From Acidobacteriota bacterium (GTDB taxonomy: Bacteria > Acidobacteriota > Blastocatellia > UBA7656), in the NCBI GenBank assembly GCA_038040445.1, contig JBBPIG010000004.1:204190-268189 (forward strand): a stretch of DNA of 64,000 nt, in the 5' to 3' direction. The position numbers and the translations under genes are program-made. Below the pieces are notes generated by a model that saw nothing but the letters and a program-made list of their open reading frames with translations, was not told where the DNA came from and did not search any database. Positions 32,604-44,109 of this stretch are shown here, piece after piece; the first letter of the stretch is position 1, and each line of letters opens with the position of its first letter.

Positions 32604-33371
32604 TTACCTTCCTTTGCTGAGTACTTGATTAATGTACTCTGAATGGTCACTCACATTAAACGTGCCAAACCTATGCAGCTCAAGTTCTGTCAATAAGCTC
32701 TGGAGGGCGGCTGAATTTTCATTCACGTCGTGTAGGTTGAAGCCCCCGAGAATGGAAAGCACTTGGTTCACCTTTGCGTTGATTCTTCCATCCGCGGCGA
32801 TTTGCTTCTCTATCTCATTACGAATCTTAGGAGAGCAATTCAGAATCACGTCGCATAGGTAGAGTACTGTCCAGACTAACGTTTGCTCAACCCGCGGCTT
32901 CTTGAGTTCTCGGGGCAGGGCATTCAATGTTTCTGTAGCGCGCTCGTTCTCATAGGAGAGGTAGTCAAAGCCGCGCTCCGTCATAAACCTATTTAGAGGC
33001 ACGTGAGAAACAAGTGAGGTTAGATAGGATGCGATCTTGTCATAGAATCTAGATGCCTCACTGACACCTTTGAACCCATTCAGATTCAAAATCCAGTGCA
33101 TTATTTCGTGCGCTACTAAGATCTCATTTACCGCGTCAGTATTCTCCAAAAACACCACCAACATCGGCTGCCCATTGACTAGCTCAGGTACTGCGGTGTT
33201 AAGCTCACCTCTGTCGCCCGATAATTTTGGGTGATCGCGCCGATTGATGATGGTTACAGGCAATTGTGGCAGGCCGTATTGCTTTTCTGCCAATGATACC
33301 CACTCGTCCATCAAAAGGGCTAATTTACCAGATGCTGTAAAATGCCCATACATCTCACCTTGCAATGGCAT
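32604..33371 (-). CDS. Unknown protein with an HExxH motif
   Basis: 255 aa. I recognise no family. NEILVAHEIMHWILNLN (about 82-98) contains HEIMH, the pattern of a zincin metallopeptidase; a candidate third ligand is not obvious, though ENERATET (Glu) lies about 50 residues on. No signal peptide or membrane segment. The DNA is more AT-rich than its neighbours, suggesting a different origin. It lies downstream of the CHAT operon on the same strand after a 453-base gap, so a role in that system is possible but unproven. The start at 33371 has AGGA upstream; a 58-codon frame (33320-33496) overlaps it and could mark a frameshifted N-terminus. Confidence 0.65.
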   Translation of the reverse strand: MPLQGEMYGHFTASGKLALLMDEWVSLAEKQYGLPQLPVTIINRRDHPKLSGDRGELNTAVPELVNGQPMLVVFLENTDAVNEILVAHEIMHWILNLNGFKGVSEASRFYDKIASYLTSLVSHVPLNRFMTERGFDYLSYENERATETLNALPRELKKPRVEQTLVWTVLYLCDVILNCSPKIRNEIEKQIAADGRINAKVNQVLSILGGFNLHDVNENSAALQSLLTELELHRFGTFNVSDHSEYINQVLSKGR

Positions 33372-33824: not shown

Positions 33825-35177
33825 CTACTGGTCCGGTCTGGCCCGTGCCGCCCGGATCTCCTCAAGCTTCTTGTAAAACTGTGACCGACTCAACCCTGCG
33901 AGCTCCGCCGCCCGCGTGACGTTACCGCCTGCTTCGGCTAACACGGCGCGAAAGTATGCAGCTTCGGCTCGATCGACGAAGTCGCGCCAGCTATCCATTG
34001 CTGGATTGAAACTCACGGAATGTGCGGGCCGAGACGATTCGCGAGTTCGAACGCTCTCTTGAAGAACGGCCGCGCTAATATGCCCGGTCGGGGCGTCCGC
34101 GTAGATCGCAGCCTTCCTAATCATCAGGCGGAGCTCACGCACGTTACCGGGCCAGTCGTAGCGGAACAAACATTCAACGGAGCCGGGCGCGGCTGTTAGG
34201 TTAGTCTTGTGTTCGGTGTTGTACTCGCTCACAAAATGACTTGCGAGCAGCGGAATATCAGGCATTCGCTCTCGTAATGGCGGCACTTCCAGCGCGAACC
34301 CTCGAATCCGCTGGTACAGGTCCATTCGGAATCTCCCCGCTGCACACTCCTCAGTCAGGTTCCGGTTCGTCGCAAGAACGATACGAGCCTGAATCTTCTC
34401 CCATCGACTTCCTCCTACGCGCATCACTTCGCCTTCCTCAATCACATGGAGTAGTTGAGCTTGCGCCGCCAGATCGAGTTCTCCGATTTCATCCAAAAAG
34501 ACGGTGCCGCTTTGAGCTTCAGCAAGCAGGCCCCGACGCGCCTGCGTCGCCCCCGTGAACGCCCCGCGCTCGTGGCCGAAGAGTTCGCTTGGCAACAGCT
34601 CGCGACTGTGTTGAGGGCAGTTAACGGGCAGAAACGGGTTGGGTCTCCCGCTTCGTTCGTGAATCTCTTTTGCGACTAATCCTTTTCCAGTTCCGTTTTC
34701 GCCGAGAATCAAGATCGTTTCTGAAATCGGCGCAAGCTTGTCGATGTGCCGATACAACTCTCGCATCTGTGGGGTTCCGCCGCGAAGGGACCCGCAATGC
34801 AAAGGATGAATGCTACCGTCCAGTATGAATTCAGCAAGTATGCGCTCGGCGACGTGAGCGGCTGTCCAGCTTCGTGGCGTAATCACTTGCGAAGCCCCGC
34901 ATTCATGTAGTATCCGCCGAGAACTTGGCTGAGCGGTGCAAAGAAGTAACGAAGGCTCCGATCCAATGAGTTCTCTGAGCGAGGATACCTCCTCGCCTAC
35001 ATCAACAACGCCCTGTTTCGGAATCACCGCGATGGCTTTATCCACTTGGACGGAGAGGCCCGCGTTGCGAAGACTCGAATCCAATTGCAGCGAAACGACG
35101 TCCAGGTCGTACTCGTTGAGGACCGTTGCAACTTCATCGATTGGAAAGTCACCAGGTGCGAACAGAACGATGGGCAT
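33825..35177 (-). CDS. Sigma-54-dependent transcriptional activator
   Basis: 450 aa. Bacterial enhancer-binding protein that uses ATP to open sigma-54 promoters. Residues 1-120 resemble a receiver fold but lack a clear phospho-acceptor Asp (VLFAPGDFPIDE at the start, VITPRSWTAAHVAE at the end). The AAA+ domain has Walker A GENGTGKG (159-166), the sigma-54 contact loop GAFTGA (205-210), Walker B VFLDEIGE (226-233) and an Arg finger region. The C-terminal Fis-type HTH is GGNVTRAAELAGLSRSQFYKKL (about 417-438). It is the last gene of the CHAT operon. A sigma-54 promoter and paired palindromes before the first gene suggest that it switches on its own operon. Confidence 0.93.
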   Translation of the reverse strand: MPIVLFAPGDFPIDEVATVLNEYDLDVVSLQLDSSLRNAGLSVQVDKAIAVIPKQGVVDVGEEVSSLRELIGSEPSLLLCTAQPSSRRILHECGASQVITPRSWTAAHVAERILAEFILDGSIHPLHCGSLRGGTPQMRELYRHIDKLAPISETILILGENGTGKGLVAKEIHERSGRPNPFLPVNCPQHSRELLPSELFGHERGAFTGATQARRGLLAEAQSGTVFLDEIGELDLAAQAQLLHVIEEGEVMRVGGSRWEKIQARIVLATNRNLTEECAAGRFRMDLYQRIRGFALEVPPLRERMPDIPLLASHFVSEYNTEHKTNLTAAPGSVECLFRYDWPGNVRELRLMIRKAAIYADAPTGHISAAVLQESVRTRESSRPAHSVSFNPAMDSWRDFVDRAEAAYFRAVLAEAGGNVTRAAELAGLSRSQFYKKLEEIRAARARPDQ

Positions 35178-35185
35178 GGCTACCT

Positions 35186-36628
35186 CTATCGATCCGCGTA
35201 GAAAGCCTTGGGGCCTACGCCACTATAGCCTGCTGCGATCAGGTCGGTACAGCCGACGTGGTAAGCATTGAGCATTTCCTGCGTGTCGCCGTGGGTCAGA
35301 AGCGCTGCTCGCACGACGGGCGTTGCAATGAGTCTGCAGGCTTCCGGTGGCACATCCTCTTCGAATCCTATTGCTAAACCGGTCCCGGCCTCCGCAAAGC
35401 AACGAGCAATCGCGGTTGACCTGCACGCCGAAAAAACCGCGAGGGGAAGAGCGCTGCCGTAGGCAGTGAAGCAAGCAAGCCACTCCGCAGGCTCCGCGAA
35501 CCCTCCCGAACCTGCTTCTTGGAGACCTCTCTCGCCATCACCATGACCAAGATAGACCCAAGCCGTCAGTGTCGAAAATGATCTCAACACTTGTGCGAGG
35601 TTCCCTCGCGTTATTGCTTGATGGGCTCGATACAGAGTACCTGGAGGCCTTTCGTATGCAATCGCGCCGGCATCGCGCGCGGCTTCGAAGTACTGGCCAT
35701 ACTCAGAGGCTGGATCGAAACTGCTGGTGACGAGCAAGCCTGGTCTCTCTTGTGCGGTGGGCGGCGCGAAAATCGGGTCCTTGATAGTTACCCGCTGGCT
35801 CGCACACGTTCGAGTTGTGGTTCGTCGATGGCTTGTCGTATTAAGCTGAGCCATAAGGTAGCGCAGCTCAAAGTGGCCACGGCATCTAAGAAGCGCAAGG
35901 TCGTGGTCGCCCTGACACATTGCACGCAAATCCGCTGAAGGGTGCACACCGAGGGCCGACACGAGATAGCGGCTTGCAGAGTAACGAGTGCGAGCATCTC
36001 TTACCAACTCGGTTTGATCGACGGCGCCCTTGTCCACGACGATTACAATGTTCGCGTCGCTACGTGGCTCCACCGGGTATATCACAAAAGGATCGAGAAA
36101 GGCTGGCAAGCGGCGTTTCAAATCGGCGAGATGACACTTCCAATTGCCGGTGAAGATCCGTGACCCTAGAACCTCTTGCCGCAGTTTCGATAGCTCCGAC
36201 GCCCGGCTCAGATCGATCGGATCCACTGGATTGAATCCCGAGCGGTCGATATCAACTTGAATGATATCGGTTGTTCCCTGCTCTTGTGCGGTCTTGAACC
36301 AATGTGACATGGAGGCGTGGTCGTCGATCTGACCTGCCGAAACTCTTATCCGCCGGTCTGCGACAATGTAGATGTCCGACCCCCAACAGTAGTCTCGCGC
36401 CGTCCGGAGCAGCCTTTCCATGAAGAAGGAATCCCAAGCCAGGAAGTGGTCACCCAACGGACACAGAAATACATCTACCGCCGGCCAGTCGCCCTGGGCG
36501 GCGCGCGATTCGAACTGGAGCGCGGCGTCTCTCCATTCATCAAGCTGGAGGTCGAAGGCCGATCGCACTGTCCAGGCGCAAAGCGGCTCGTGTCCGCCCT
36601 GCGGCAGTATGATGACGTCGGTTGACAT
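35186..36628 (-). CDS. CHAT-domain (caspase-like) protease
   Basis: 480 aa. The C-terminal half is a CHAT peptidase: catalytic His362 in TAWVYLGHGDG and Cys402 in LAVFSACRSTAIA, forty residues apart as expected for this clan CD fold, followed by the DTQEMLNAYHVG helix. The N-terminal 270 residues match no family I know (starts with VIILPQGGHEPLCAW, has VDVFLCPLGDHF); it may be a sensor or partner-binding part. No signal peptide. The gene lies 15 bases after the REC-GAF protein and 8 bases before the sigma-54 activator. In known systems CHAT proteases cut a partner after a trigger; here the target could be the activator, the kinase or the HExxH protein (inference). Confidence 0.88.
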   Translation of the reverse strand: MSTDVIILPQGGHEPLCAWTVRSAFDLQLDEWRDAALQFESRAAQGDWPAVDVFLCPLGDHFLAWDSFFMERLLRTARDYCWGSDIYIVADRRIRVSAGQIDDHASMSHWFKTAQEQGTTDIIQVDIDRSGFNPVDPIDLSRASELSKLRQEVLGSRIFTGNWKCHLADLKRRLPAFLDPFVIYPVEPRSDANIVIVVDKGAVDQTELVRDARTRYSASRYLVSALGVHPSADLRAMCQGDHDLALLRCRGHFELRYLMAQLNTTSHRRTTTRTCASQRVTIKDPIFAPPTAQERPGLLVTSSFDPASEYGQYFEAARDAGAIAYERPPGTLYRAHQAITRGNLAQVLRSFSTLTAWVYLGHGDGERGLQEAGSGGFAEPAEWLACFTAYGSALPLAVFSACRSTAIARCFAEAGTGLAIGFEEDVPPEACRLIATPVVRAALLTHGDTQEMLNAYHVGCTDLIAAGYSGVGPKAFYADR

Positions 36629-36643
36629 TCAATCCTCTACTTC

Positions 36644-38302
36644 TTACTTCGCCAGAGTGTCGGGCTTAGGGAAACTGATGACGAATCTGTGGCCGGCGTC
36701 ACCTTCGATTTCGTCGGAACGATCTTCGAGCCGGCCGCGATATTTCACTTCGACGATCATCTTGGCCAGGTAAAGCGGCAGGTGAATACCCGGTCCCTTG
36801 TCCTTCTCCAGGACAGACAGAGGGACCGCTTGAGAAAACGGGAAGAAGAGCTGGCGGCGAAGCCGCTCGGGTAGTCTGCGGCTGCGGTCTTCAAGCGTCA
36901 CTTGCGGACCGTCCGGAGTTTCAGTACATCGGACACTTATTAGGTGAGGCATTTCTGAGGAGGCCTCAACGCGTCGTCGCGCGAGCCATTGAAGTAATCG
37001 CGAGGCTACAATGAAAAGGTCCTCGCGCGTCGCCAGGACCTTGCAGTCCCCGTCCAGGTCGATGGCGATTTGGTCCTTCGGCTGGTTCCTGACAATCTCT
37101 TCCCAAGCCGACGAAACAAGTCGGGACATCGAGACTGTACGTTCCGGAGGCGTCGCACGGGTGGTTTCAGTTTCCTTGTCCTCATCGTCGGTTAGAGACG
37201 TGAGCATCTCACCCGTGTCGCGAAGGTCTTCAGCAAGGGATTGGAGTCTGCGAAAGTGCAGTCCTCGCGGAGCTTCGTCGGAATCTTCGGCGTCTGATAG
37301 GACGTCCAGTTGCTCCTGACCTATAAAGAGACAGAGGCGAGCCGTCGCGCGGAGCACTTCCCGCCGACGTTGTATGGCAGACACGCCAAGCTGGGTGAGG
37401 ACTGTGAGCAAGTGTTCAACGACCGCCGGACGAAGATATCCGCCCAGCACTTTGCACAATTCGAGCGCGTTCTCGCGAAGAGGATTCTGGCCAGCGTCCC
37501 CGTCAAGGAAGCCGACCGAAAGTGTAAATCCTCTGCCGCTTGATAGAGGAAGAAACGCGGTGTCTCTGAACCTTTCTGCAATGCTCCAAGCCTGCGCATT
37601 ATCCATGCCGCCTAGCTTCGCTGAGTCAAAAACGAAGGGGTGCGTTCGGTTTGCCTCGCCGTGAACTAAGCCCTGTAAGGTCTTGTAGACTGGGTCCTCA
37701 CTCTCGGGCAAGTTGGCGTTTCCAATGCAGATTGTGACCCCGTTCACCACCGTCGCGAGAATGACGAACGGCACTCCGGCGACCGCCTCGAATGCGGGCG
37801 CCAAGACTTGTCGGCAGAATCTGAGCACCGCATCGGCCCGGTCTCGACTGGCGTCCGCTATCACGCCAATCTCTTCCGCGGCGCCCGGTCTCTCAACGCT
37901 CAGCGCTCGCCTAAGCATGAGTCCCCGCACGTGCCTAATAACCTGGTTCTGCGTGTGCTCTTCCTTGTGCAGGTAAGCTGCTACTCCCAGCTCTACGGCC
38001 AAGCGATAGTAATCTACTTCCGAGAAGGCTGATGTGATTAAGAACTCCGGTCGCCATGCAGGTCGCGAAGCGCGAACTTCGAGACCAAGGTCTGCGCCCG
38101 TGATTGATGGATACTGGCGGTCCTCCAAGCGCATATCCAAGATCATCACTCCGAGTTTATCGCCGAGTTTGTTTACTAGTGCGCGGGCCGATTCCACACT
38201 TCCTGCGCTCTCCACGCTAAAGCCGCGCATCTCTAGTGCCGTGTGTAATGCCAGTCGTTGAGAGTCGTTGTCCTCAACAATCAGGATCGTATCGCTTATC
38301 AT
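36644..38302 (-). CDS. REC-GAF-histidine-kinase-like regulator
   Basis: 552 aa. Receiver domain (1-125) with acid pocket Glu10-Asp11, phospho-acceptor Asp56 in VMILDMRLED, Ser/Thr at 90-91 and Lys113 in AYLHKEE. A GAF-like domain (about 145-290) follows. The C-terminal part (about 300-552) is histidine-kinase-like: helices with LRDTGEMLTSLTDDE instead of an obvious HE box, then an ATPase-like fold with EKDKGPGIHLPLYLAKMIVE at about 500-519. No DNA-binding output domain. It starts inside the stop of the sensor kinase (ATGA overlap), so the pair is translationally coupled. Probable phosphotransfer partner of that kinase, passing the signal on by protein contact. Confidence 0.85.
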   Translation of the reverse strand: MISDTILIVEDNDSQRLALHTALEMRGFSVESAGSVESARALVNKLGDKLGVMILDMRLEDRQYPSITGADLGLEVRASRPAWRPEFLITSAFSEVDYYRLAVELGVAAYLHKEEHTQNQVIRHVRGLMLRRALSVERPGAAEEIGVIADASRDRADAVLRFCRQVLAPAFEAVAGVPFVILATVVNGVTICIGNANLPESEDPVYKTLQGLVHGEANRTHPFVFDSAKLGGMDNAQAWSIAERFRDTAFLPLSSGRGFTLSVGFLDGDAGQNPLRENALELCKVLGGYLRPAVVEHLLTVLTQLGVSAIQRRREVLRATARLCLFIGQEQLDVLSDAEDSDEAPRGLHFRRLQSLAEDLRDTGEMLTSLTDDEDKETETTRATPPERTVSMSRLVSSAWEEIVRNQPKDQIAIDLDGDCKVLATREDLFIVASRLLQWLARRRVEASSEMPHLISVRCTETPDGPQVTLEDRSRRLPERLRRQLFFPFSQAVPLSVLEKDKGPGIHLPLYLAKMIVEVKYRGRLEDRSDEIEGDAGHRFVISFPKPDTLAK

Positions 38303-41160
38303 ATTTGATCCTCCGGTCTAGGTTTGGGAAATCGAATGGTGAATCTGGTGCCGCCAGGACCAGGGTTCGTTAGCTCGATTCCAGCACGATTCTCTCGCAA
38401 GGAGCGATCCACGAGGTACAGGCCCCATCCGCCGCTGCCTGGCTTTGTGGTCTCACCCAATTCAAAGATGCGATCTCTTATGTGGTTGGCGACGCCCGGA
38501 CCATCATCGGTCACATGGCAGAGCACCACATCCCCAACGTCGTCAGCGTCAATCCGGATTGTGCCGGCGCCGCTCAACGCATCGCTAGCATTGTGTACAA
38601 GATTAGCCAGGGCGAGTCCCGCAACGTGAAATGGCACATCGATCACCAGATCAGGAGCAACTGTCACGGTGAGAGCGATCTGACGCTGACTAAGGAGAAC
38701 CTCAAACAGCTTCCGGGCGTGTTGCGCTGCGTCTGCTAGCGAGCAGGGTCGATGCGCATCCAACTTGGTGACGTTAGCGATTGGGCTGAGGAGTTGCAAG
38801 AGATTCGTGGTCGAATCGCTCATCAGAGCTATGAGCCTACTGAGTTGTTCATCACACTCGATCCTTCCGAGTGCAACAGCATCCTTCAGGGTGCTCGCTG
38901 GACCCTGCAATCCCTTCACCATATTGGTCAACTGATGGATCAGCGTTCCCGTCGTTACGGCGACCGTGGCCAACCCCTGATACTGAGCGGCATCTGCCTG
39001 GAGTCGTTGAAATTCGATTGCAGCGGTTATTCTTACTAAAGCGGAATCCGCAATGTCACCAAAGTATTCAAGAAACAAGCTCCATGGCGAATGGAAGGTC
39101 AGCTCGGGGCCGAAGCCTTCGCGCTCCACTCCCATCCAAACGCGACCCTTAGTGTTTGGAAGCGTAATCCTGACGAGTTGATTACAGTTACCTCCCTCCG
39201 AATACTGATGAATCAATGCGATGGCGTCACCATCACCGGCGCCCGGCCCCAAGCTTTTGACAATCGCGATTGCCTCCTCGTCTCCTAAGAGCTCTTCGGT
39301 TCCCGGCTGTGTTGATACTACCCACCTCAGACCGGCTTTGCCGGCAATCTCTTGGACCGCTTTGAACCAGGCAGCGACATTGGTCGCTTCCTTTTGGTTG
39401 AGACGCACGCCAAGCTCCTTCAATAGGTCATCAAAGTACTTGCGGGCCGAGTCAAGAAGCGCATCGGAAACCAATGAGGCTACGGCTCTCCGATGAACGT
39501 AGTTGGTTCCTAGCGAAGGATGCGATACTTCGTCAAGGCCAGATGGCACGAGCAAGATGAGTTCACCTAGGAAAACATCAGGGGTTGGTTCCGCCGATCG
39601 CATCGCCACTAGGTGACTCCGGGCGATCTCGGTAGTTTGATGTCCGTCGTCATCAACTACAGAGGACCAAACTTGATTCAAACGGCCTCTAACGTCTTGT
39701 TGGAGGATATCGCGGTAGGCAGGGTCCGCCGCCTCAATCTTGCGAAAAGATCTGAATCCCTTATCCACCAGAATGCAGGTGCCGAGAGGCGAGAGAACGT
39801 CGTGCAGGATCTGCGTCATTTTCTCAACCGACCTTTCAATGTCCGCCATCGGCTGCTCTACCTGTAACCTCGAAAAGCCATAGCCAAGCTGGTCGAGGGC
39901 CGCGAGCTCCCGATTGGATTGAACCGCCGGAGCCACTAGATCGGCCAACTGTCTTATGTGTTGAAGCGCTGTCGCGCTATACGCCGCGGTTTCCCAGATT
40001 ACCTTCAGACATCCGATTACAGCGCCATGAAATCGAATGGGCACCGCAACAATTGAGGAATGGTTGTCCTGAGGTTCGAATGCGTGCGCGGTGAATGACT
40101 TCTCCCAGTTCGGTCGAGGGTATCTGAACTCCTGTCCCGTTTCAAATACCTCTTCCTGAATGCTGTCGTACGTCGGGGGAAAGAGGGTGCTCCCGCGTCC
40201 ATCCCCGGATTGCTTTCGTACGTCCCAACTCAAGGTCTTGACCCGCCCTAGCGTAGCCCCCGGAAGTCTTAAAGATAGTTCGGTGCGGTCCGCTCCAACG
40301 CTCTCCGCGATAGATCGCACGATGCCAGGGCCTTCCAGATACTCCGCCTTGCCGGCAGTAATGCCACTCATCATCTTCTTGACGTCGCCCGACGACACTA
40401 CAACTAGAGTTCGCATGAGGAGAAAAAACGCCGACACGAAAAGGCCATACTTGAGCGGCCAGGCAGCGAGAATGGTCAGAGCGTCCAAGAAGTGTAATGC
40501 GTCGTGGGGTCCGTCATTTATGTCGAACTGATGCATCAACTCAATCACCCATCTCCATTGACTTGAGGCGATAATTGGGTTGAACCCGTAAACCACCTGC
40601 ACTAGCGCGTAAACGCTGCCGACATTTATGGCGATGGCCGCAAGGATGGGGCGGCGGCGAAATCCAATGTTAGTGAATGTGGCGTAAATGACCAACCCAA
40701 GACAGGCGGCGGAGAAAAGAGCATCTGGCATTCGAGACCATAAGAAGGCGTCGCCGGGAAGCCCGCAAAGAATTGCAAGAACAGCAATGCACCAAGCTAG
40801 CTTCGGTACCGCCGGCCTTCTGTCCAACAGATCGAATGCCGCTGCGAGAAATAGCAGATTGTTTGCGGTTGAAAAGAAAAGATTCAGCACACGAAGGATC
40901 TGGTAAATGGATTCTCCTGCACTTGTGGAGGTTTGGACGGCCGCCATGTGATAGCCGCCACGCTGAATTATGTATTGTATTGCAAGTAGTGCGAATCCCC
41001 ACGCGAAGAACTTCGCCCAGCGCTCGGCCGACAGTGCGAAGTACCGAAGGATAAGAATCACCACGGCGAAGAATCCCGCCATCGCCGCCGTCAAGATCAT
41101 CAAGACGTGCCGGTACTCGTTGACGAAATCAAGCGCATCCTTTAGCAAGTCGGAAAACAT
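38299..41160 (-). CDS. Membrane sensor histidine kinase with GAF domains
   Basis: 953 aa. N-terminal sensor with about seven hydrophobic segments (15-270), a GAF domain (about 290-425: FEPQDNHSSIVAVPIRF), a second GAF-like region (about 440-585), a third sensory stretch (to about 720), then the kinase core. The phospho-acceptor is probably His742 in TLIHQLTNMVKG. The ATPase domain has the N box LANLVHNASDAL (851-862), G1 VTDDGPGVA (883-891) and G2 GSGGWGLYLV (908-917). The layout recalls PrsK-type kinases, but no PEP-CTERM genes are present. It is followed, with a 4-base overlap, by the REC-GAF regulator and preceded by the phosphoesterase gene. Confidence 0.9.
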   Translation of the reverse strand: MFSDLLKDALDFVNEYRHVLMILTAAMAGFFAVVILILRYFALSAERWAKFFAWGFALLAIQYIIQRGGYHMAAVQTSTSAGESIYQILRVLNLFFSTANNLLFLAAAFDLLDRRPAVPKLAWCIAVLAILCGLPGDAFLWSRMPDALFSAACLGLVIYATFTNIGFRRRPILAAIAINVGSVYALVQVVYGFNPIIASSQWRWVIELMHQFDINDGPHDALHFLDALTILAAWPLKYGLFVSAFFLLMRTLVVVSSGDVKKMMSGITAGKAEYLEGPGIVRSIAESVGADRTELSLRLPGATLGRVKTLSWDVRKQSGDGRGSTLFPPTYDSIQEEVFETGQEFRYPRPNWEKSFTAHAFEPQDNHSSIVAVPIRFHGAVIGCLKVIWETAAYSATALQHIRQLADLVAPAVQSNRELAALDQLGYGFSRLQVEQPMADIERSVEKMTQILHDVLSPLGTCILVDKGFRSFRKIEAADPAYRDILQQDVRGRLNQVWSSVVDDDGHQTTEIARSHLVAMRSAEPTPDVFLGELILLVPSGLDEVSHPSLGTNYVHRRAVASLVSDALLDSARKYFDDLLKELGVRLNQKEATNVAAWFKAVQEIAGKAGLRWVVSTQPGTEELLGDEEAIAIVKSLGPGAGDGDAIALIHQYSEGGNCNQLVRITLPNTKGRVWMGVEREGFGPELTFHSPWSLFLEYFGDIADSALVRITAAIEFQRLQADAAQYQGLATVAVTTGTLIHQLTNMVKGLQGPASTLKDAVALGRIECDEQLSRLIALMSDSTTNLLQLLSPIANVTKLDAHRPCSLADAAQHARKLFEVLLSQRQIALTVTVAPDLVIDVPFHVAGLALANLVHNASDALSGAGTIRIDADDVGDVVLCHVTDDGPGVANHIRDRIFELGETTKPGSGGWGLYLVDRSLRENRAGIELTNPGPGGTRFTIRFPKPRPEDQI

Positions 41161-41169
41161 GCTTTTGCT

Positions 41170-42519
41170 CTAATCACGCTGCCACTGTCGGTCGCTCGAA
41201 TCGAACCGCCAACTCGCCAGTGTCGACGGACCAGTATCATCCCATTGCACCAAAGCAGCGTCAGTTGTCTCGCTCTGAGAGTCGAGAGTCACACGCGCGA
41301 AAGTTGGCCGAGTCACACCTTCATCGCGGCCGTTCAAAAGCCCTTCGAGGAACTCACGCCAGTCCGCATCAGAAGCATCGCCGGGGGGCAGGCGTAAGAG
41401 ACGACCCCACGTCCCGGTGTTCAGGTAGAGCCCCGCTCCGAGTCTGTACGCCTTCGCCGAGTGCGTATGGCCGTGAATGACAAGGTCTGAGCCTTGTTTA
41501 AGAAGGTAGGTCACTACCTCACTCACACTGTCCGGCGTTTGCAGGTCAAAGAAGTCATCTTCCGCCGCAACTTCGCGCAGCTTCGGAATCAGCCGCTCGA
41601 TTCGGTCCGCTTGAGAGGCGCGTCTTTTGGGCTCGCGTTCCATCTCTTCCAGCCAGGCAACCAGTTTCTGCTTCCTCGTGCTCGTGTGATTTGTAGACCT
41701 CACGATTCGTGCCGGGTCCGATTGGATCTCAAGTTCGGTGATCGCCGAGCGCACGGCGGAACTCAGCCAGTGTTTCAGGGCAGGGAGCAGCTTGTATTGT
41801 TCCTTGCGTTCGAGGAATGCAAACATAATGGGAATGACCGCCTCGCGTTCTGGCTTGAGAAGATAAAGCCAGGGATACTTTTCGCGTAACTCTATGAGGT
41901 ACTCGACGACCAGCTTGCTGCCGGGCGGCGGAGTGTACTTATGATTTTCCAAGAGACCTCTGCTAGCCAGACTGGACGCTCTTCGGAGAGCGTCGTGGTC
42001 GATTCGGTTCCAATCATCAAACATCTCTCCATGTTCGATCAGCGCAGTTGCTTCGCCGACTCGAATCGTCGCGGCCTCGCTGTGAACAAGCCATCTCACC
42101 GGCGGAGCCGCCGCAGACCAACCAAGCCTCTGTTCAATCACTTCTCTCACCGAAGGAAAGGCGAGTTCAGGGTCGTGATTACCGGCCATCCAAATGACGT
42201 TGTGCTCGGGTGAGCGCGCGAGCCGGCCCAATGCGTCGAAGACCTCGGGATGTTTCTCGAGGATCGATGCAGTCCTGGCAGGGGCCCCTGCCGGGTGAAG
42301 CGCCTTTTCGGCGCGTTCACAGTGCTCCACTACGAGAAAGTCGAGGATGTCGCCCGCAAGCACCATCGTAGCGTTGGGAGCTTCTTCAAAGACCCACGTT
42401 AAGAAGCTGGTCAACTCGGCGTCGGCTTGGAACATCCCTTTGCCTTGCTCGGCTGCCATGTGTATGTCGCTCAGCACGATTAAATCTTCAGCTTTCCACA
42501 TACATCGAAATCCAAACAT
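41170..42519 (-). CDS. Calcineurin-like metallophosphoesterase
   Basis: 449 aa. Two-metal phosphoesterase with all standard motifs: DxH in VLSDIHMA (Asp18, His20), GD in VLAGDILDF (56-57), GNHD (113-116) and GHTH in VIHGHTHSAKAY (about 350). Between motifs III and the GHTH block is a long insert (about 185-310) with helical, charged sequence (ADRIERLIPKLREVAAED), which may bind a partner or nucleic acid. ATG at 42519 or 42501 could start it; neither has a strong ribosome-binding site, so coupling to the small ORF 31 bases upstream is possible. First large gene of the CHAT operon. Substrate unknown; nucleotides or nucleic acids are family options. Confidence 0.88.
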   Translation of the reverse strand: MFGFRCMWKAEDLIVLSDIHMAAEQGKGMFQADAELTSFLTWVFEEAPNATMVLAGDILDFLVVEHCERAEKALHPAGAPARTASILEKHPEVFDALGRLARSPEHNVIWMAGNHDPELAFPSVREVIEQRLGWSAAAPPVRWLVHSEAATIRVGEATALIEHGEMFDDWNRIDHDALRRASSLASRGLLENHKYTPPPGSKLVVEYLIELREKYPWLYLLKPEREAVIPIMFAFLERKEQYKLLPALKHWLSSAVRSAITELEIQSDPARIVRSTNHTSTRKQKLVAWLEEMEREPKRRASQADRIERLIPKLREVAAEDDFFDLQTPDSVSEVVTYLLKQGSDLVIHGHTHSAKAYRLGAGLYLNTGTWGRLLRLPPGDASDADWREFLEGLLNGRDEGVTRPTFARVTLDSQSETTDAALVQWDDTGPSTLASWRFDSSDRQWQRD

Positions 42520-42550
42520 TAGAATGCATCACGGAAAAGATCGAGGTTGG

Positions 42551-42715
42551 TCACTCTGGGGGCAAGGTTCCGTCGTCCAAAGAGGCTTCGTAATCAGCGC
42601 AGACCAGCCTCAGCTTGCGGTCGTAGGTTGATCGAATGCAGATGCTGCTTCGCGGACGGTTCGCGCGGAACAGTCGCGCGTTCAAGGGAACGAGCAAATG
42701 ACTTTGATGCTTCAT
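42551..42715 (-). CDS. 54-residue small protein at the head of the CHAT operon
   Basis: ATG at 42715 with AGGAGG five to six bases upstream, the best ribosome-binding site of the operon. The product starts MKHQSHLLVPLNARLFRAN, has two cysteines and an acidic tail ending SLDDGTLPPE. No family recognised. It lies about 25 bases after the predicted sigma-54 transcription start and 31 bases before the phosphoesterase, so it is probably the first gene of the transcript or a leader ORF. Confidence 0.55.
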   Translation of the reverse strand: MKHQSHLLVPLNARLFRANRPRSSICIRSTYDRKLRLVCADYEASLDDGTLPPE

Positions 42716-42750
42716 GGGGTCCTCCTTTTCAATCCCTGCCCCCGTCCAAA

Positions 42751-42766
42751 GGCAATTTATTCGCCA
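42751..42766 (-). promoter_or_regulatory. Sigma-54 (-24/-12) promoter of the CHAT operon
   Basis: Minus strand reads TGGCGAATAAATTGCC, against the consensus TGGCAC-N5-TTGCW: TGGC and TTGC are both exact and the GG and GC dinucleotides are spaced correctly. The predicted start is near 42740, 25 bases before the small ORF. Confidence 0.7.
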
Positions 42767-42840
42767 GGCAGAAACGAAGCAAGAACTCCCCTAGATCGAG
42801 GCTTTAGCCGCGAGTCGATCTGAATTGCAGTATGAGATTG

Positions 42841-42875
42841 TCCGGTGGAACGGACGCTCAATCCGAGTAATCGGA
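42841..42875. promoter_or_regulatory. Two phased TCCG-N6-CGGA palindromes, candidate enhancer
   Basis: TCCGGTGGAACGGA (42841-42854) and TCCGAGTAATCGGA (42862-42875), 21 bases apart centre to centre, or two helical turns. They lie about 108 and 129 bases upstream of the predicted sigma-54 transcription start, the usual distance for an activator site. Confidence 0.6.
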
Positions 42876-42916
42876 CAGGAAACGGGTCTATTCATAAGAG
42901 ATGGGGAGTTCAGCCT

Positions 42917-43060
42917 CGGCGTCAAACCCGAAGTTCAATCTAAGCTGTTCCTTCAGCCCTATGATGAGTATGCGCATCAGGTCGTCTTCGAGTGAAAGGA
43001 AAAACCGGGATGAGCCTGGATCACCTTGCCGCCCCGAGCGTCCTCGAAGCTGATGGTGGG
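42917..43060 (-). pseudogene. secA: Internally deleted secA fragment
   Basis: Two blocks match the intact secA. 42917-42966 matches about 44725-44768 (GCGTCAAACCCGAAGTTCAA and more), and 42967-43060 matches about 45113-45203 (CGTCTTC-AGTGAAAGG, GATGAGCC-GGATC). Between them about 345 bases of secA are missing. Both blocks keep the secA orientation. Confidence 0.85.
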
Positions 43061-43384
43061 GATTGAGGTCTTGACTTTCTGCCCCAAAAGCAGGACTCTG
43101 CCCTTCGCTCTACGATGCTCCAGTAGTCGTTCAGTACTACACCAACGAGACGGATCTTGAGACGTATGCCGAGGAGCTTCGAGAGTTCCTCACGCGTATG
43201 GGGCAGGAAGCGAGGCAAGGGGCTGTGGGACTTGTGATAGATCGGGATTACCTTGAAGTATGCAGGTGGCAGCTCAGATTCTCGAAGACGCTACGGCGAG
43301 TTACATTCCGCACCGTCCGACTGTGAAGGGTCGGGCGCTAGAACACAACCTCAAATGTGGTGAAGCACCCAAATGGATCGAGGG
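43061..43384. other. Degenerate stretch between the secA fragment and vapC
   Basis: No frame with a start signal or family motif. The plus strand around 43120-43260 reads like eroded coding sequence but cannot be assigned. Confidence 0.4.
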
Positions 43385-43849
43385 CTACGGGTGATTGTTA
43401 GGGTCATCAACTGAGAGCCCTTCTGCTTGAGCCGCGCTGTTCAGGTCCGCGTCTGCTGAAACAAAAGCGAAGTTACTAACTCCGGCGGAAGCTAATTCGG
43501 ATTGAACTGCCAACGCGGTCGCCAACTGGATGGAGTCGTAGCCGCGCAAACCATGAGCCTCGGCCAACTTCATCGCATGGTCAACAATATTCATCGTGAG
43601 TGACGCGACCTCATATTCGCTTTTGAAGTGTTGTTTGAAGGCAACGATAGCCACGGATGACGACTGACTGGACATCTGGCCGATAAGGCTCTTACGAGTG
43701 AGGGCCGCCGCCATCTCGGCACCTGTTGCGATTGAGATGAAGACTTCATTATTAGCAGCGGCGCCGGTTATGCCTACGACCCATGAACTTCCGGTCTCTC
43801 GCGCGTATCGCTTCACGAGCGCGCTGGTATCGAAATAGAAAGCTGCCAT
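43385..43849 (-). CDS. vapC: PIN-domain toxin VapC
   Basis: 154 aa. PIN ribonuclease: N-terminal AFYFDTSALVKRYARETGSSWV (Asp6), a conserved Glu in IATGAEMAAALTRK, and the C-terminal HGLRGYDSIQLATALAVQ and FVSADADLNSAAQAEGL segments that complete the acidic site. VapC toxins cut specific tRNAs or rRNA in studied organisms. It follows vapB with a 1-base overlap (TGATG), so it is translated only with the antitoxin. Confidence 0.92.
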   Translation of the reverse strand: MAAFYFDTSALVKRYARETGSSWVVGITGAAANNEVFISIATGAEMAAALTRKSLIGQMSSQSSSVAIVAFKQHFKSEYEVASLTMNIVDHAMKLAEAHGLRGYDSIQLATALAVQSELASAGVSNFAFVSADADLNSAAQAEGLSVDDPNNHP

Positions 43850-44109
43850 CAGCGCCGTTCTCTGATTATCATTTCAGAAAGGGGCTCGCCTTGAAATTCG
43901 ACAGGGCTGAAGTCTGTTTGCGCTGATCCGGGTTCCTTGGCCGCCAGCAAGCCTGTGGTACGCATACGCTCAATAGCGCGAGCGATGTTTGTCTCTTCAA
44001 TTTGGTGCGAAAGACGGTCGATAACTTGCGCGATAGTCACTCCGCTGTCTTTTGCCTGGTCTTCCAACCGGGCGTAAACTTCATCGTCGATGTTTACCGT
44101 TCTGCTCAT
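43849..44109 (-). CDS. vapB: VapB-type antitoxin
   Basis: 86 aa. Starts SRTVNIDDEVYARLEDQAKD, a ribbon-helix-helix DNA-binding pattern, followed by a flexible C-terminal part that should cap VapC. Probable autorepressor of the operon. It lies 63 bases downstream of the secA stop, on the same strand. Confidence 0.85.
   Translation of the reverse strand: MSRTVNIDDEVYARLEDQAKDSGVTIAQVIDRLSHQIEETNIARAIERMRTTGLLAAKEPGSAQTDFSPVEFQGEPLSEMIIRERR

Follow-up and report, generated by a model that had tools for sequence, protein, structure and literature searches.

How is an operon controlled that encodes a CHAT-like (caspase-like) protein together with a sigma-54 activator? The genes in question lie on the minus strand of the window, by which we mean the whole analysed stretch of 64,000 nucleotides, and the initial annotation had placed a sigma-54 promoter with a paired enhancer in front of them. 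The proposed -24/-12 element TGGCGAATAAATTGCC (42751-42766, minus strand) reads TGGC-N7-TTGC from 42766 to 42751, with exact TGGC and TTGC at the claimed spacing: GG-N10-GC is correct for a GG at -24/-25 and a GC at -12/-13. Taking the C at 42752 as -12, position +1 would fall at 42740, 25 nt 5' of the ATG (42715) of a 54-aa open reading frame. As a bare string, TGGC-N7-TTGC is unremarkable, with 2 copies in the 64-kb window and 2.7 expected. A scan of the region 42520-43390 revealed no sigma-70-like promoter and no terminator.

The genes behind this element are tightly spaced and all face the minus strand. The 54-aa open reading frame (42715-42551), overlooked in the initial annotation, would follow the promoter as first gene of the operon. 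It has a good ribosome-binding site, with AAAGGAGG upstream, and is weakly similar to a small open reading frame in the same place in a homologous operon, L021 (PRSSICIRS and PRRSISIRS, respectively; shuffle p about 0.03), and we regard it as a possible small gene. It is followed by genes for a calcineurin-like metallophosphoesterase (41170-42519; PF00149, 6e-8), a membrane sensor histidine kinase with a GAF domain and a conserved HQxxN box (38299-41160), a response regulator composed of a receiver and a HATPase-like C-terminus (36644-38302; PF00072, 1.5e-10) and the CHAT-like protein (35186-36628). The last gene (33825-35177) encodes, as had been stated, a sigma-54 activator. This protein combines a degenerate receiver, an AAA+ domain containing GAFTGA and a Fis-type HTH, and is a candidate ligand of the palindromes described below. 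Directly upstream of the operon and co-directional with it lies a VapBC-like pair of genes for a PIN-domain protein and a ribbon-helix-helix-like small protein (43385-44109). The gene at 32604-33371, shortly after the last gene of the operon, encodes a protein without Pfam match whose HEIMH motif is zinc-peptidase-like.

For the CHAT protein, the predicted fold (mean pLDDT 78) had SAVED-CHAT 8tl0 as its best match (E 9e-8), with caspases lower in the list, and the His362/Cys402 dyad is invariant in five homologues. The Pfam CHAT profile did not match the window protein; its cut-off is 24 bits, and the L021 and L028 proteins scored 13. Since the assignment is made by fold and dyad and not by Pfam, we use the label 'CHAT-like': according to the structural model, the product of 35186-36628 is a caspase-like fold with a catalytic His/Cys pair. 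The term 'CHAT operon' of the initial annotation hence stands by fold and dyad and not by the Pfam profile. The activator matches PF00158 (1.5e-56) and HTH_8 (6e-9) and carries Walker motifs and GAFTGA (GSFTNA in L016, another homologous operon). Its N-terminus has no Pfam match and is predicted to adopt an alternating beta/alpha, receiver-like fold, in which the alignment reveals no conserved acidic pair and no beta3 Asp. The model of the whole activator matches NtrX, NtrC4, FleQ and VpsR structures, its AAA+ part being of low confidence.

We searched 162 genomes of the class for the activator N-terminal domain and found it in four, namely the window genome, G304 (L016), G488 (L021) and G412 (L028). 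The five main genes are retained in order in L016 and L021. In L028 the kinase, regulator, CHAT and activator genes are retained and a small open reading frame replaces the phosphoesterase gene. A related operon in G057 (L017:3607-11271) consists of kinase, regulator and CHAT genes with a trypsin-like gene in front, and contains neither the activator nor a sigma-54 site. Judging from L017, the regulatory part seems to be an add-on that can be separated from the kinase-regulator-CHAT operon. The occurrence of the operon is sporadic, since its phosphoesterase is absent from the only other genome that represents the genus. Homologues outside the class were not found in plasmids, viral contigs, a sample of 396 genomes of the phylum and two further phyla (28 and 395 genomes, reached via other loci), an empty answer that came without a positive control. 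Relatives of the activator at L003-L012 had no CHAT, kinase or phosphoesterase match nearby.

Comparison of these operons speaks for the promoter. Sites were scored with an approximate sigma-54 matrix, under which each strand carries a background of 0.07 sites per kb that reach at least 11 and 0.03 that reach at least 13. By this approximate measure the top sigma-54-like site upstream of the operon reaches 11.3 bits in the window, 13.2 bits in L016 (TGGCATAACAAGTGCT), 14.1 bits in L021 (TGGCATAGCTAATGCT) and 13.9 bits in L028 (TGGCACACGACATGCA). A strong site is found upstream of all four operons with the activator (the window and 3/3 homologues), and the chance of all four is well under 1e-5 by our rough product of per-region chances. 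Upstream of the kinase gene in the activator-less L017, no sigma-54-like score above 2.5 was obtained. RpoN is encoded in the window genome (PF04552, E 1e-57, contig C34). Because the site is conserved in every activator-bearing homologue and absent from the activator-less relative, and because RpoN is present, the sigma-54 reading of the initial annotation is well supported, and 42766-42751 is, as far as the sequence can tell, likely a sigma-54 promoter.

Sigma-54 promoters with activators of the NtrC family (NtrC, NifA, PspF, FlrA/FleQ type) combine the -24/-12 element with sites for the activator that share one helix face and lie between about -80 and -150. Upstream of the element in the window lie two TCCG-N6-CGGA palindromes, the proximal one TCCGGTGGAACGGA (42841-42854; minus-strand reading TCCGTTCCACCGGA) centred at -107.5 and the distal one TCCGAGTAATCGGA (42862-42875; minus-strand reading TCCGATTACTCGGA) at -128.5. 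The centres are 21 bp apart, in helical phase and within the range of about -80 to -150, in agreement with the positions of roughly 108 and 129 bases upstream given before. In the 6.7-Mb genome there is one exact pair of this kind, and the reversed-pattern control has none; with looser pair spacing it is still the sole pair in the genome, and the reversed control then gives 1 match. Palindromes with 4-bp arms and N6 number 283 in the window, and neighbouring ones with identical arms are expected 0.38 times per 64 kb; 2 such pairs were seen, one of them the TCCG pair. The plus-strand open reading frame that overlaps the palindromes (42825-42995) had no NCBIfam match, and no RNA family scored above threshold at the locus. 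The inverted repeat AGATCGA-N15-TCGATCT (42793-42821, no strand), which had been suggested as a bend or extra site, was rejected as a functional element: with 87 such 7-bp-arm repeats in the 64-kb window, or 1.4 per kb, it is at chance level and probably not a part of the promoter.

Conservation of the palindromes is uneven. When the four operons were compared, the TCCG-N6-CGGA motif that the initial annotation had proposed to look for near sigma-54 promoters of homologous operons was clear in L028, loose in L021 and absent in L016. In L028, TCCGGCAATCCGGA stands at -104.5 and is followed 19 bp further downstream, at -85.5, by the imperfect TCCGGCAAACCGAC (Markov-shuffle p about 0.003). The L021 operon offers no more than TCCG-N7-CGGA, at -138, and the upstream region of L016 contains no convincing TCCG palindrome. 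The idea of a paired enhancer is supported by its position and phasing and, in part, by conservation, but the palindromes are less conserved than the sigma-54 site. The L021 activator is the closest to that of the window (52-53% identity) but the palindrome is not conserved there, which speaks against a simple one-to-one reading of activator and palindrome. The recognition helix differs between L028 (RHHTQFYEYM) and the window (LSRSQFYKKL), yet the palindrome is common to both. A genome-wide search for TCCG-N6-CGGA followed after 60-90 bp by TGGC-N8-TGC gave a single match in G000 and a single one in G412, each time at the homologous operon. Across the 162 genomes, a single TCCG palindrome with a sigma-54 site was not enriched over the reversed-pattern control.

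Tandem TCCG pairs occur at ten places in the 162 genomes, five of them with the exact 21-bp period. Perfect intergenic pairs, mostly TCCGAAATTTCGGA, precede three genes (L072:9255-9289, L073:9820-9852 and L074:9756-9788): G092 has two of them, both for TonB-type outer-membrane receptors, and G003 has one, for a GAF-PAS histidine kinase. The pairs are located at -131.5/-110.5, -116.5/-97.5 and -126.5/-107.5 relative to sigma-54-like starts, that is 97-132 bp upstream. As in the window, 95-109 bp separate the pair centre from the sigma-54-like site (9.7-12.2 bits) on its downstream side. According to the search of the 162 genomes, G092 and G003 do not contain the operon activator, which makes it likely that in the class a different activator reads a TCCG-N6-CGGA enhancer. 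The G092 and G003 pairs share an AAATTT core that is missing from the window palindromes, where only the 4-bp arms match fully, and hence the binder may differ. Taken together, the sequences suggest that a class-wide tandem TCCG-N6-CGGA sigma-54 enhancer probably exists. As enhancers, we discarded the tandem pairs at L063, L064, L065, L067 and L069, which are inside open reading frames or repeats, and the one at L066, which lies just before a 16S rRNA gene and has no close sigma-54 site. In G417 a tandem pair (L076:458-492) close to the end of a contig immediately precedes a 16S rRNA gene, and in G439 TCCGCGTTTGCGGA occurs many times within a coding region (L077:9566-9601 and nearby), a repeat family and not an enhancer.

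Sequence evidence from four operons thus covers the promoter with its palindromes, the joint conservation of promoter and activator gene, and the anatomy of the operon. The start of transcription, the binding, the identity of the binder, the feedback and the signal belong to a model that we infer. RNA polymerase with RpoN would sit closed at 42766-42751. The two TCCG-N6-CGGA palindromes, separated by two turns of the helix and lying some 95-115 bp 5' of -12, would be bound by an activator, which would loop over and open the promoter with its AAA+ ATPase. This activator would most likely be the product of the operon's own last gene, which would create a positive feedback switch, and the CHAT/phosphoesterase cargo would stay off in the absence of a signal, which would come from the linked kinase/response regulator pair or from a ligand that binds the degenerate receiver. 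The module would probably be silent until the activator fires. Autoregulation by the last gene is plausible because the activator gene and the promoter travel together, and we lean towards it with some reserve. With similar, moderate confidence we favor the overall view that the six-ORF operon is driven from 42751-42875 by a sigma-54 promoter and its tandem upstream activating sequence, most likely via the operon's own activator and in positive feedback. More tentatively, the operon might be a self-contained, sporadic CHAT effector module in which the pseudo-receiver activator binds the tandem enhancer and ignites its own operon, and all-or-none feedback gates cell-death or stress effectors.

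The perfect tandem pairs in front of sigma-54-like sites of unrelated genes in G092 and G003 allow for a different binder also in the window: the promoter would be sigma-54 dependent, a different, class-conserved activator would bind the tandem palindromes, and the operon's activator would act elsewhere or indirectly. We consider this rather unlikely, since the AAATTT core of those sites is missing from the window, their sigma-54-like sites are weaker than or similar to that of the window, and a dedicated activator fits the presence of a single such pair in the window genome better than a global one.

Another reading accepts the sigma-54 site and takes the palindromes as chance occurrences, or as sites of an unrelated repressor or other factor, with activation via other sites. 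It would fit the abundance of 4-bp-arm palindromes in the window and the lack of a clear TCCG pair in L016 or L021; however, same-arm pairs are rare, the distance of the window pair is the classical one for enhancers and the same palindrome stands equally far upstream in L028, so that we judge it improbable. The sigma-54 promoter itself might be a chance TGGC-N7-TTGC, the operon then being served by a promoter of the sigma-70 type or by transcripts that read through from the VapBC-like pair. The string indeed occurs at chance frequency, and the VapBC-like pair points in the same direction with no terminator-like site in between. This is nevertheless improbable, given that a sigma-54 site accompanies 4/4 activator-bearing operons, that it is absent from the activator-less L017 and that no sigma-70-like match was found in 42520-43390. 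We therefore retain the sigma-54 promoter with a tandem enhancer, most likely served by the operon's own activator, as the preferred reading.

The architecture of the promoter is textbook; less usual are its cargo and the tandem TCCG motif that recurs across the class. With known sigma-54 tandem-enhancer promoters the window shares the -24/-12 element and the distance and helix face of the activator sites, but its cargo is a CHAT/phosphoesterase/kinase operon. Sigma-54 promoters are strictly off without an ATP-driven activator, and caspase-like effectors behind such a promoter would therefore gain a tight safety catch. A literature search for work in which CHAT operons or operons of Acidobacteria are controlled by sigma-54 found none. 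A tandem TCCG-N6-CGGA enhancer common to several sigma-54-like promoters of the class offers a concrete binding-site hypothesis. According to the available portions of two papers, FlrA-like activators use palindromes of the GTCA-N6-TGAC type, with 4-bp arms and N6 (PMC4641369), and many clostridial sigma-54 activators use TGT/ACA repeats with 10-12 bp spacers (PMC6615313); the TCCG-N6-CGGA arms of the window are not described in these portions. Like FleQ, FlrA and VpsR, the window activator has a receiver-AAA+-Fis layout with a predicted receiver-like fold that, by alignment, lacks the phospho-acceptor Asp, but its N-terminus has no Pfam match and its gene sits inside an effector operon.

The effector genes also recall conflict systems. 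The CHAT fold is shared with SAVED-CHAT systems (best match 8tl0), and calcineurin-type phosphoesterases, as encoded in the window operon, occur as effectors in vWA/MoxR systems (PMC7159879). In contrast to these systems, the window genes are encoded together with a histidine kinase/response regulator pair and a sigma-54 activator. Histidine kinases are not reported among vWA-associated effectors (PMC7159879), and the window operon has no vWA or MoxR gene. In G057, another metallophosphoesterase is encoded beside a trypsin-STAND-like ATPase gene (L022:1942-5048), an arrangement that resembles conflict-system gene pairs.
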